Source: Methanobacteriota archaeon
Lineage (GTDB): Archaea; Thermoplasmatota; Poseidoniia; Poseidoniales; Poseidoniaceae
Direction of reading: 5' to 3'
Length of the DNA: 40,291 bases
Assembly (NCBI GenBank): GCA_002706065.1
Contig: PAJM01000008.1
Coordinates: forward strand, 1 to 40,291
The position numbers and the translations under genes were made by a program. Within the stretch, counting starts at the first letter, position 1; each line of letters opens with the position of its first letter. The notes under the pieces were generated by a model. The model saw nothing but the letters and a program-made list of their open reading frames with translations, did not search any database and was not told where the DNA came from. Below are positions 34,166-40,291 of the stretch, piece by piece.

Positions 34166-34972
34166 TTGAGTGTGGATTTGTCGTGGGAAGACATTGTCTG
34201 GGAGGACCCTGATGGGGGTCGAATTGTCCTACATGGAGTTCTTCCTACTACCGTTCATCCTCGTGCACTAAGGCCTCGGATTGAATGGCATGCACTCACA
34301 TTGCTTGAAGGTCCAGAAATTGAGGATGTTTGGCAACTGGAAGAAGAATCTGAAAAAGAATCACCAGGCATAAATCTCGCTTCCGCTATCTTAGGCGGGG
34401 GTCTCGATTCGGCCTTGATTGAGGATTTGACTCAACTCGATGAGATTCAAACCGGGCGATTTCCCGATCCAGAACCTCGACGTTTGCATCGACTTGCACT
34501 CCGTCACAATCGGCCAGTGTATTGCATTGAACCGACTCTCGATGATGCTGATTGGGAAGAGCAACGAACGCAAGAGGCGAAGGTATCGACCCATTGGCGA
34601 AAGTTACTGTCCATGGTTCGAATAGGGAAGAAGTGGAAAAAAGCAGTCAAAGTCCGAATCTTCGATGCAGTACCTCCTCCAAAGAACGTACCAAAAGATA
34701 TGGCGACTGCTTCGGTTCTTACCGCAGCGTGGTGGGATTTGACCGAATCAAGAATCAACTCAACGCTCTCAAAAGCCAGAGATGAACGATTTGCGAAGCG
34801 TCTCCGTGGAGCACTCGCTGTGGAACGCGCAAAACACGGCGATTCAGCGACGTTACTTCTGCCAATGGTTCAGACGTGGAGACCCGCACTTCTCGCAATG
34901 CTCAATTCAAATCCTCAACCAGAGGAGATTATTTCATCAACAAGCCCATCGGAACAACAGGAGGAGGAGTGA
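34166..34972 (+). CDS. Uncharacterised 268-aa protein upstream of the TBP-like gene
   Basis: I do not recognise this soluble protein. It begins (M)SVDLSWEDIVWEDPDGGRI, has a small beta segment (IVLHGVLPTTVHPR), an acidic stretch EDVWQLEEESEKE and a Gly-rich turn SAILGGGLDSALIED. A basic, helical second half follows (HWRKLLSMVRIGKKWKKAVK, RFAKRLRGALAVERAKHG). No ATG lies near: a TTG at 34166 follows GTGA with a 4-nt spacer, and a GTG at 34172 is an alternative. The open frame extends further upstream only inside the giant gene. Its stop shares a base with the next ATG (TGATG), so it is co-translated with the TBP-like protein. Confidence 0.7.
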   Translation: MSVDLSWEDIVWEDPDGGRIVLHGVLPTTVHPRALRPRIEWHALTLLEGPEIEDVWQLEEESEKESPGINLASAILGGGLDSALIEDLTQLDEIQTGRFPDPEPRRLHRLALRHNRPVYCIEPTLDDADWEEQRTQEAKVSTHWRKLLSMVRIGKKWKKAVKVRIFDAVPPPKNVPKDMATASVLTAAWWDLTESRINSTLSKARDERFAKRLRGALAVERAKHGDSATLLLPMVQTWRPALLAMLNSNPQPEEIISSTSPSEQQEEE

Positions 34973-35505
34973 TGAGCGGCAACATTGACGTTACAGTCGA
35001 GAATCAACTGGTTCGTTTTGTCGCCCCCGAACCGATTGATGGCAACGCAGTTGTAGAGCACCTCGATGGTCAACGTTTTGGAAAAATGGTCATCAAGGCA
35101 CTGCGAAGACCAAGAGCGACGCTTGTCATTGATCCTGAAGGACGCATTACCGTACACGGTACTCATCGCATCGAAGCAGCGCGCGATGCTGCGAAAGAGC
35201 TGATGCTTCGCCTTGGAAAAGACGATACCGGTTTGAAAACAGAACTGGGACCGATCATCGCCTCATTCTACTTCAATACGCCAATTAAGGTCCAATCCAT
35301 CGTTGGCCAATTGGGTGCAGGTGAAGGTCAATACGATGACCGTCTCGATTGTGGCATCATCAAAGACGAACGACACGATCTTGTCCTTCACGTGTGGGAA
35401 AACGGTCGTTGTGTCGTCACGGATGGCCGTCACCCGAAGATGGTTGCAATGGCTGCTGTTTATTGGCAATCAAAATTCAAAGACCTTGGGATCTCCAACT
35501 TTTGA
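34972..35505 (+). CDS. Divergent TATA-binding-protein-like protein
   Basis: The 177-aa protein has the two-repeat plan and length of archaeal TBP (about 180 aa). Repeat 1 holds QRFGKMVIKALRRPRATLVI and GRITVHGTHRIEAARDAAKEL, the counterpart of the FPGLVYR, ATLIFSSGK and TGAKS..DA segments. Repeat 2 holds IIASFYFNTPIKVQSIVGQ, LDCGIIKDERHDLVLHVWE and GRCVVTDGRHPK. Most of the DNA-kinking Phe positions appear changed (FPG to FGK and LDCG; IF to VI and HVW), so it may not bind a standard TATA box. GGAGGAG precedes the ATG. It lies between an unknown gene and a TatD-like gene on one strand. A canonical TBP is presumably elsewhere. Confidence 0.6.
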   Translation: MSGNIDVTVENQLVRFVAPEPIDGNAVVEHLDGQRFGKMVIKALRRPRATLVIDPEGRITVHGTHRIEAARDAAKELMLRLGKDDTGLKTELGPIIASFYFNTPIKVQSIVGQLGAGEGQYDDRLDCGIIKDERHDLVLHVWENGRCVVTDGRHPKMVAMAAVYWQSKFKDLGISNF

Positions 35506-37611: not shown

Positions 37612-37664
37612 GAATACTCAAAGACGTACTGTGCTCGGTATCACCTGCGAAATGAGGGGTGCGG

Positions 37665-38459
37665 ATGCTAGGTCTACAAGGAAAAACCGCTGTCGTGTTT
37701 GGAGTTGCAAGCGAAGATTCGATTGCGTGGGCCATTTGTCAACAATTAGCAGAGGCTGGAGCCGACCTGTTTCTTGGCTATCAAAAACGCTTCATGTCAC
37801 GTGTATTTCAACTCAAAGATAAGCTTCCTGCAATTAAGGGATTTTACCCACTCGACGTAGCGAACGATGATACAACACGCGAGTTCTTTGATGAATTTTC
37901 CAAGGAACACCAAGGGAGAACAATCGACGTCCTTGTCCATGCGATCGGTTTCGCCCCTCGAAGTTGCTTCGATCGGCCGATTCTGTTTGTCGAAGATTCA
38001 GACATCAATACGGCGATGACGATTTCAGCAAACTCCCTACAACGTTGTCTGAAGTTTGCGATGCCGTACCTTAGCGAAGGGTCTTCGACCATCACGCTCA
38101 CATATGCTGCTTCGACACGCTTCGTCCCATCGTATGGAATCATGTCGATGGCAAAAGCTGCACTTGAGTGTTGGACACGAGAACTTGCGTGTCATTTGGG
38201 ACCACATGGGCATCGCGTCAACAGTATTTCGTCGGGTCCGATTCGAACCATCGCCGCATCCGGCATTCCCGGTTTCGATCGAATTCTTGACCACGTTGAA
38301 GCAAATGCACCCCTTCGCCGCAACGTCAACCAATCAGACGTTGCCGGGACAACGCTTTGGCTCGCAAGTCCTCTTTCAGCTGGCGTCACAGGACAATGCA
38401 TCCACGTCGATGCCGGCTATTCAATCACCATGGTGCCGCAAAGCATCATGGACGCGTGA
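37665..38459 (+). CDS. fabI: Enoyl-[acyl-carrier-protein] reductase (NADH), FabI type
   Basis: The 264-aa SDR-fold enzyme reduces the enoyl-ACP double bond, the last step of each fatty-acid elongation round. It has GKTAVVFGVASEDSIAWAI (the FabI-specific cofactor motif), HAIGFAP, Tyr147 and the Tyr157-x6-Lys164 pair in YGIMSMAKAALE. SSGPIRTIAASGI is the substrate-loop hallmark, and the protein ends GQCIHVDAGYSI. E. coli FabI is 262 aa with Tyr146/Tyr156/Lys163, so the family call is firm. Start ATG 37665 follows GAGGGG; GTG 37659 is an alternative. Its stop overlaps the Shine-Dalgarno of the ketosynthase gene, so the two are coupled. FabI is essentially a bacterial/plastid protein. Confidence 0.95.
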   Translation: MLGLQGKTAVVFGVASEDSIAWAICQQLAEAGADLFLGYQKRFMSRVFQLKDKLPAIKGFYPLDVANDDTTREFFDEFSKEHQGRTIDVLVHAIGFAPRSCFDRPILFVEDSDINTAMTISANSLQRCLKFAMPYLSEGSSTITLTYAASTRFVPSYGIMSMAKAALECWTRELACHLGPHGHRVNSISSGPIRTIAASGIPGFDRILDHVEANAPLRRNVNQSDVAGTTLWLASPLSAGVTGQCIHVDAGYSITMVPQSIMDA

Positions 38460-38468
38460 GGTGAACAT

Positions 38469-40291
38469 ATGACGCTTACAACCGATGACGGAAAACCATG
38501 CGAAGGGCTTGAACAAGGGCCGTTTGAACCAATTGCAGTCATTGGCCTTGCAGCTATGATGCCCGATGCGGAGGACCTGTCATCCTTCTGGCAAAATATC
38601 ATCGATTCACATGTGAGCATCAAGGAAATTCGAGAAGGTCGATGGCCAGGCCCCGTCGATCATTTTTGGACGGAAGGTAAACCAGGCGATGTCGCTCATG
38701 GTTACACCTACGCGAAGATAGGCGCCTTCGTTGAAGGATATGAGTTCGATTGGCGTCGATGGCGTCAACCACCTGGGACCATACCGCAAATCGATCCATG
38801 CCAACTTTGGGCCGTATCTGTTTCCGCTGCAGCCATTGAACAAGCAGGGTATGGGGAAGGAGAGAAAGTCTTCCCTCGCGAGCGTGCTGGTGTTGTCTTT
38901 GCAAATGCTCTTGGCGGTGAGAACCGAAACCTGTCAAACATACGTGTTTGGTCAAACCATACTGCAGAACTTGCCAAAGAGCACGGAATGCCAGCCTCTT
39001 CAAAAGACGCATTCATGGATGCAGTCAATGAGCATGCGCCGAAGGTCGATGAAGACACCATGCCGGGTGAACTTGCCAATGTTGTATCGGGACGTGTCGC
39101 AAATCTGTTGGATTTGCAAGGACCAAATCACGCCATGGATGCGGCGTGTGCATCCTCGATGGCAGCAGTAATGGATGCCTGCCGACTTCTGCAAACACGA
39201 CAAGCAGACGTCATGCTTGCGGGAGCAACGGATCGAACAATGGATCCTGCAACATATGCTAAATTCAGCGCAATCGGTGCACTCTCTCCAACACACTCGA
39301 CTCCGTTTGATGCTCGAGCGAATGGTTTCGTCATGGGAGAAGGCGCTGGTGTCATGGTTCTCAAACGACTCAACGATGCGATTGCAGACGATGACACCAT
39401 CCACGCAGTGATTCGTGGTATCGGTGGCTCGAGCGATGGTCGTGGCAAAGGCATTACTGCACCAAGTCAACGTGGACAAATCCAAGCCATCGCCCGTGCC
39501 TACAATCAAGCAGGATATCCTGCATCTTCTGTTCAGTTGGTTGAAGCACACGGAACGTCAACGAAAGTAGGTGACGCCACTGAACTCTCAACGTTGACGC
39601 GTTTGTGGACTGATGCAGCAACTGGCGACAATGTTGCCGTTGGCTCAATAAAATCTCAAATTGGCCATCTGAAAGCCGCTGCAGGAATTGCAGGCATTAT
39701 CAAATCGGTCATGGCACTCCACCACCGAACCATTCCTCCTTCTGCGGGTTTTCAAACACCAAATCCGACCGTCGATTGGCAGAACATCCCGTTCTTTGTA
39801 CCAACTTCTCCTCTCGATTGGCCAGAGCCTGAGACACACCCGCGTCGTGCAGGCGTTTCCGCCTTTGGATTTGGGGGGACGAACTTCCACATCGCATTGG
39901 AGGGTTACAAACCCGAGTTTCATCGAGATATGGCCGAAGATTGGCAACAGCGATGGAATGCTTATTCGAAATCAACATCCGTTTCGGCTCCATCAATTTT
40001 TGATTCTTCAGCTACTGCATCGTTAACACATGATGAGTTGAAAGGCATTGAGGGAGGGATTCTCCTCCTCTCAGCGTCTTCAATTGATGCGCTCGCTACA
40101 GCACTCGAAGCAACAGCATTTGCAGGCTCGAAGTTTGATGACGACCCTCGTGGATTACGGCTTTCGATAGCCCTCCAAGCTGCGAGTTCGTCGTTCGATT
40201 CAACTCATCCTTGCCGCTTGGCACTGATCGCAACGTCTTGGGCTGAGTTTGAGAAACGGAAGACATTGGCACTCAAGTCGATTGCAGACCC
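38469..40291 (+). CDS. PfaA-like polyketide / polyunsaturated-fatty-acid synthase, ketosynthase end (runs off window)
   Basis: The reading frame from ATG 38469 stays open to the window end (607 codons). Residues about 15-480 form a type I beta-ketoacyl synthase: FEPIAVIGLAAMMPDAEDL, active Cys227 in DAACASSMAA, His361 in VEAHGTSTKVGD and His400 in GSIKSQIGHLKAAAG. The FGFGGTNFHIALEG end motif follows. After about 500 comes a linker and GILLLSASSIDALATALEA, typical of the region before an acyltransferase domain. This layout fits the PfaA subunit of bacterial PUFA synthases or a related modular synthase. GAGGTGA lies 4 nt upstream of the ATG and overlaps the fabI stop. Further domains lie beyond the window. 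Confidence 0.9.
   Translation, partial: MTLTTDDGKPCEGLEQGPFEPIAVIGLAAMMPDAEDLSSFWQNIIDSHVSIKEIREGRWPGPVDHFWTEGKPGDVAHGYTYAKIGAFVEGYEFDWRRWRQPPGTIPQIDPCQLWAVSVSAAAIEQAGYGEGEKVFPRERAGVVFANALGGENRNLSNIRVWSNHTAELAKEHGMPASSKDAFMDAVNEHAPKVDEDTMPGELANVVSGRVANLLDLQGPNHAMDAACASSMAAVMDACRLLQTRQADVMLAGATDRTMDPATYAKFSAIGALSPTHSTPFDARANGFVMGEGAGVMVLKRLNDAIADDDTIHAVIRGIGGSSDGRGKGITAPSQRGQIQAIARAYNQAGYPASSVQLVEAHGTSTKVGDATELSTLTRLWTDAATGDNVAVGSIKSQIGHLKAAAGIAGIIKSVMALHHRTIPPSAGFQTPNPTVDWQNIPFFVPTSPLDWPEPETHPRRAGVSAFGFGGTNFHIALEGYKPEFHRDMAEDWQQRWNAYSKSTSVSAPSIFDSSATASLTHDELKGIEGGILLLSASSIDALATALEATAFAGSKFDDDPRGLRLSIALQAASSSFDSTHPCRLALIATSWAEFEKRKTLALKSIAD

Follow-up and report, generated by a model that had tools for sequence, protein, structure and literature searches.

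The window analysed here is a 40,291-nucleotide stretch of DNA from an archaeon of the order Poseidoniales (contig PAJM01000008.1 of assembly GCA_002706065.1, forward strand), and its right end carries a gene for a FabI-type enoyl-acyl carrier protein (ACP) reductase followed by the beginning of a very large synthase gene. A sequence-only reading of the window had proposed that this pair heads a fatty-acid, polyunsaturated fatty acid (PUFA) or polyketide system. The open reading frame (ORF) of the synthase crosses the end of the window, but not that of the contig (G000:C8, 74.9 kb), and its full length is 2,914 amino acids (aa). The proposal is supported by the sequence past position 40291, where the remaining domains follow, including an acyltransferase (AT) domain, three ACPs, a ketoreductase (KR) and a dehydratase (DH), and then a phosphopantetheinyl transferase (PPTase) gene. 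The features are listed below (KS, ketosynthase; psiACP, putative degenerate ACP; coordinates are those of the window unless prefixed).

37659-38459, plus strand: fabI, encoding an enoyl-ACP reductase of the FabI type; 266 aa if started at GTG 37659, 264 aa if at ATG 37665
38458-38464, plus strand: Shine-Dalgarno sequence GAGGTGA, overlapping the fabI stop codon TGA (38457-38459) and preceding the synthase ATG at 38469
38469-40291, plus strand: first 607 codons of the megasynthase, KS-AT-psiACP-KS-ACPx3-KR-DH; the gene ends at G000:C8:47213 (L002:2470-11214)
38526-39932, plus strand: first KS domain, about residues 20-488, with Cys227, His361 and His400
39759-40043, plus strand: KS C-terminal extension, or linker to the AT (PF16197), residues 431-525
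about G000:C8:47223-47984 (L002:11224-11985): Sfp-type PPTase gene, 253 aa, with Pfam ACPS and N-terminal domains and the motifs GVDAE and WTSKEAVQK

Gaps of only 9 bp separate fabI from the synthase gene and the synthase stop codon from the PPTase gene, and the overlap of the fabI stop codon with the synthase Shine-Dalgarno sequence is as first described. The closest matches of the fabI ORF are FabI models and FabI crystal structures, and the archaeal protein matches the FabI of Thermus thermophilus (1ulu) over its full length (E=4e-57). Tyr147, Tyr157 and Lys164, which had been reported as intact, are present when counted from the ATG at 37665; they form the Tyr-x6-Lys signature of FabI with its upstream Tyr, in a short-chain dehydrogenase/reductase fold. 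This signature is common to the archaeal and bacterial proteins, but the archaeal FabI clusters with other Thermoplasmatota FabIs, and its partner is a type I synthase, whereas that of bacterial FabI is a type II system.

The domain order of the synthase, determined with Pfam and NCBIfam on the orthologue from genome G012, is KS, AT, KS, three phosphopantetheine (PP)-binding domains, KR and DH. Between the AT and the second KS, the segment SVADYVGDRIAQH...LGLSESS, from residue 1034 on, appears in a by-eye alignment to be a degenerate ACP from which the acceptor residue is absent. The Cys227-His361-His400 triad and the AT-type linker that the sequence-only reading had seen in the first KS were both recovered, the latter as PF16197. 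In an alignment of 29 chains, 20 of them from Poseidoniales and the others including bacterial ones, the Cys-His-His of the first KS, the Ser/Arg/His of the AT, the Cys-His-His of the second KS (Cys1349, His1497 and His1537), the Ser-Tyr-Asn of the KR and the His of the DH are invariant (29/29). The AT of every aligned Poseidoniales chain carries HAFH, which we take to be a malonyl-type signature, and the DH motif HxxxGxxxxP is kept in 20/20 Poseidoniales chains. Polyketide DHs usually have Asp at a position where all aligned chains, the bacterial ones included, have Glu. A role of the second KS as a chain-length factor (CLF) is ruled out by its retained active-site residues. All of the extension activities are thus found in the chain except enoyl reduction, a step that the operon FabI could supply. 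The synthase is clearly under purifying selection; comparison with a copy from the same genus gave 319, 142 and 1539 differences at the first, second and third codon positions, respectively, across 2,878 codons. The L002 stretch contains 23 ambiguous bases, which leave 11 synthase residues (around 608-860 and 1350) as X and probably reflect population polymorphism in the window's own assembly; G012 and G031 provide clean alleles.

The tandem ACPs are unusual at the phosphopantetheine attachment site. Among the ACP copies of the Poseidoniales loci, 47 of 52 read LGIDTVKQAE and 5 of 52 read LGIDSIKQAE, so that most copies lack the canonical Ser of the DSL motif. In the chains of the tree set, 47 have Thr throughout, four have Ser throughout and two are mixed; the state changes four times across the tree, once within Poseidoniales. 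The bacterial chains were found through the Thr motif and are a biased sample in this respect, whereas the archaeal ones, mostly retrieved by their KS, do not have this bias. Thr-type ACPs (L002:7600-8500; L033-L052; L191-L222) occur nearly throughout the synthase family, in archaea and many bacterial phyla; a Ser acceptor characterises two genera of Poseidoniales, and individual ACPs of L221 and L069 have it too. Because Thr and Ser interchange in otherwise well-kept ACPs adjoining a PPTase gene, the pattern points to Thr as a working phosphopantetheine acceptor. No paper containing the Thr motif was found in the open-licence literature. Carriers of this kind, common to a wide bacterial family, challenge the rule that carrier proteins require serine.

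The distribution of the operon was examined in 60 relatives, comprising the family of the window's genome (f1) and its sister family (f2), and in a broader sample of 390 genomes of the phylum. The synthase is present in 44 of the 60 relatives and FabI in exactly the same 44, the two genes being adjacent in every case where both share one contig, and the PPTase gene comes next in nearly every complete locus. This linkage and exact co-occurrence very well support the assignment of FabI as the predicted enoyl reductase of the operon. Gene order is the same in all examined Poseidoniales with the synthase, and hence in other Marine Group II genomes, where the sequence-only reading had suggested looking for it; family f1 includes Euryarchaeota archaeon UBA433 (L132, which has the contig place of G364), which NCBI assigns to Candidatus Poseidoniales, i.e. 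Marine Group II. All 36 f1 genomes among the 60 relatives have the synthase, and three f1 genomes in the broader sample, none of them complete, gave no match. In family f2, it was found in genera g12, g15, g17 and g19, but not in g13, g14, g16, g18 and g20. PP-binding domains were detected in 42 of the 60 genomes and in none of the 16 without the synthase. They lie outside the synthase only in G029, so that, apart from this genome, no discrete ACP of the kind that defines a type II fatty-acid synthase (FAS) was found. G029 is the only one of the 60 with an additional KS and another ACP-bearing frame, of 2,356 aa (G029:C24:13957-17202 and G029:C15:5798-6640), which perhaps belong to another polyketide synthase or nonribosomal peptide synthetase (NRPS).

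In the broader sample, the synthase was found in 102 of the 390 genomes, including seven families outside the order Poseidoniales. FabI adjoins the synthase in family f15 (L217 and L218), and three further Thermoplasmatota genomes have a close FabI located away from it. In L202, L217 and L218, synthase and PPTase form one protein, with the PPTase at its end. In L216-L224 and L229, all from Thermoplasmatota outside Poseidoniales, the synthases are about 3,050-3,800 aa long and have 250-650 additional residues ahead of the first KS; this N-terminal extension contains at least one ACP in L216 and has no Pfam match in the others.

Apart from the present case, FabI and synthases of this architecture are known from bacteria, and bacterial contamination or a chimeric contig was therefore considered. 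The whole operon was found in the one-contig genome G033, and also in tens of independently assembled genomes. The upstream genes, encoding a 260-aa protein, a TATA-binding protein (TBP)-like protein and TatD, are common to f1 and the f2 genus g17, and genera without the operon still keep these upstream genes near the 247-aa gene that lies downstream in g17, with other genes in between. Because genomes without the operon keep its flanks, which are archaeal and syntenic, and because G033 carries it on one contig, a chimera, which the sequence-only reading had foreseen as a danger for its proposal, is ruled out, and the tree within the group matches its taxonomy; the chance that contamination explains the locus is vanishingly small. 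The KS-AT tree shows a single, fully supported Poseidoniales clade with the f1 clade nested inside it, and the FabI tree, for which two PDB sequences were taken from structure-search alignments, agrees in showing one fully supported Poseidoniales clade; both trees had been called for by the sequence-only reading. The KS-AT tree covers the phyla of the Type R family described below (Elusimicrobiota, Acidobacteriota and Chloroflexota, the last including a Roseiflexus), though by sequences other than the named Type R references, and its deep branches are weak. A single archaeal origin of the synthase was neither shown nor rejected by the approximately unbiased (AU) test (p = 0.396). The simplest history would be that the operon was present in the common ancestor of the sampled Poseidoniales and was inherited vertically, with later loss in several small-genome genera.

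The nearest described architecture is the Type R secondary lipid synthase, a single protein KS-MAT-KS/CLF-ACP(3-6)-KR with a PPTase gene downstream and an unknown product, reported from Acidobacteria, Elusimicrobia and Roseiflexus (Shulse & Allen 2011, PMC3098273). No word starting with 'archae' occurs anywhere in PMC3098273. Searching with the ACP motif, we found bacterial chains of the same architecture in Longilinea (Chloroflexota), Roseiflexus, Elusimicrobia, Acidobacteria, Rhodothermales, Gemmatimonadetes, Myxococcota and others, with about 40% identity to the archaeal synthase across KS-AT. By Pfam, the archaeal synthase likewise has KS, AT, KS, two or three PP-binding domains and KR in one ORF, and its PPTase gene lies directly downstream. 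It has three ACPs in the window's genome and two in some members of the sister family, the latter falling below the Type R range of 3-6. A second KS lacking the active-site Cys, as the CLF label implies, is found neither in the archaeal chains nor in their bacterial Type R relatives; the label in PMC3098273 is therefore probably loose, and this feature does not separate the archaeal chains. What the archaeal version adds to Type R is archaeal hosts, a discrete fabI as the first gene of the operon, and 2-4 ACPs; in the bacterial loci examined, FabI is not adjacent to the synthase. A C-terminal DH, detected by Pfam in both the archaeal chains and the bacterial relatives, is missing from the description in PMC3098273.

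The first description of the synthase as a PfaA-like megasynthase holds in part: it is of type I and its best NCBIfam family is PfaA (TIGR02813; 874 bits, below the cut-off of 1010.1), but it is a one-chain Type R protein and not a multi-subunit PfaA/B/C/D system. The archaeal and Pfa PUFA synthases (Types A/B) have the order KS-AT-tandem ACP-KR in common. In contrast to Pfa, the archaeal enzyme is one chain with an internal second KS, its own DH and Thr instead of Ser ACPs, and the putative enoyl reductase of its operon is FabI instead of the flavin enzyme PfaD. None of pfaB, pfaC and pfaD is among the operon neighbour genes, and a canonical PUFA synthase is ruled out by the domain order and these missing partners. 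The type I FAS of fungi, animals and mycobacteria works on the same one-chain iterative principle, but the archaeal synthase differs from it in domain order, in its tandem ACPs and in having the enoyl reductase in trans, and such enzymes were not among its best structure matches by sequence. Two features seem new here: Thr carriers, and an archaeal Type R architecture that comes with FabI. No description of a polyketide or fatty-acid megasynthase in Poseidoniales was found in the open-licence literature. A putative fatty-acid pathway in Marine Group II was proposed by earlier authors, as cited in PMC6962369, and we claim no priority on this point.

The fabI-megasynthase-PPTase operon is likely to specify a type I fatty-acid (secondary-lipid) synthase that works iteratively in these archaea. 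The architecture, the intact active sites, the linkage, the co-occurrence and the vertical inheritance can be read from the sequences themselves, and from them we infer catalysis, saturation, chain length, release and the destination of the product. The PPTase would arm the tandem ACPs with phosphopantetheine, the acceptor being threonine in most species. The AT would load malonyl extender units, the two KS domains would condense them, and reduction and dehydration by the KR and DH would take place on the synthase itself. With FabI, a separate protein, reducing the enoyl intermediate in trans, a mostly saturated acyl chain would result. This chain most likely enters glycerolipids through PlsC- or GPAT-like acyltransferases, and the saturated acyl chains are probably destined for membrane lipids.

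A putative carboxyltransferase for malonyl-CoA formation was detected in all 60 genomes, making a malonyl supply plausible. PF01553 acyltransferases also occur in 60/60 genomes and fall into three classes. The PlsC-like class of about 270 aa and a 540-aa class with H-x5-D (classes A and C) are present in genomes with and without the synthase, whereas class B, an acyltransferase of 542 aa (G000:C19:31494-33119), is found in 36 of the 44 synthase genomes and in none of the 16 others (Fisher p about 5e-9, uncorrected for kinship, so that the count overstates the evidence from these related genomes). PlsC-type acyltransferases as a specific marker of the synthase were thus rejected; only class B tracks it, imperfectly. 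In the window's genus, the 542-aa acyltransferase gene (G000:C19:31494-34740 region, L246 and beyond) is followed, after about 160 bp, by an acyl-CoA carboxyltransferase gene, and on its other side is what appears by eye to be a methylmalonyl-mutase-type GTPase.

A FAS feeding acyl lipids is the best explanation, and its main rival is a specialised lipid product. The operon might encode a secondary-metabolite synthase making a polyketide or a polyunsaturated or hydroxylated lipid, with FabI acting in some cycles only and the product serving as a special lipid, such as the tail of a glycolipid or surface molecule, and not in the bulk membrane. Type R is classed as a 'secondary lipid synthase' (PMC3098273), PfaA is the NCBIfam model that matches best, several genera do without the operon, and general lipid genes are not among its flanks. 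However, the exact co-occurrence with FabI speaks for complete reduction, the operon is not accompanied by glycosyltransferase or NRPS genes, PfaC- and PfaD-like partners are missing from it, and this is the only ACP system in nearly all genomes and is present in all sampled f1 genera, which suits housekeeping; we regard the secondary-metabolite role as unlikely. Supply of a short chain, such as octanoyl-ACP for lipoic acid or another cofactor, would give archaeal LipM/LipB homologues the ACP substrate that they are not known to have, but a chain of 2,900 aa, with two KS domains and 2-4 ACPs in tandem, is disproportionate for a trace cofactor, and such a role is very improbable.

Several observations weigh against a FAS feeding membrane lipids. 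The top NCBIfam FabI score is 226 bits, below the equivalog cut-off of 391 (curated cut-offs are about 300-480), and the protein is therefore a divergent FabI. FabI was not found in sampled synthase-bearing members of the Thermoplasmatota families f11, f23, f26 and f39, and is therefore not required by every member of the synthase family. No thioesterase or obvious release domain was identified for the synthase. Thr is a poor acceptor in the ACP of Escherichia coli. The carboxyltransferases may be propionyl-CoA carboxylases, and acyltransferase classes A and C, which persist without the synthase, are not specific to it.

Poseidoniales are abundant ocean archaea that were thought to have no fatty-acid synthesis. 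They lack glycerol-1-phosphate dehydrogenase and have glycerol-3-phosphate dehydrogenase, and their lipids are still to be found (PMC6461757, PMC6962369). It is conceivable, although we put this forward only tentatively, that Poseidoniales make saturated fatty acids de novo on Thr-borne arms with the partner FabI, and build ester-linked membranes of the bacterial (glycerol-3-phosphate) type or mixed membranes. If so, this would explain why known archaeal lipids are not found where Poseidoniales dominate. The operon makes the question of membrane composition directly testable: a dedicated, conserved synthase with its own reductase and activating enzyme would be a tangible supply of acyl chains, open to expression and assay without cultivation of the archaeon.

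Two neighbouring genes deserve mention. The TBP-like protein upstream of the operon (window 34876-35505) has a partial match to PF00352 and stands beside TatD in both families, whether or not the operon is present. Downstream of the operon, L002:15694-18999 (G000:C8, minus strand) encodes an Asp-rich repeat protein of at least 1,101 aa with repeats of the DxDGDGxxD type, which by eye look calcium-binding-like, and a C-terminal membrane helix.
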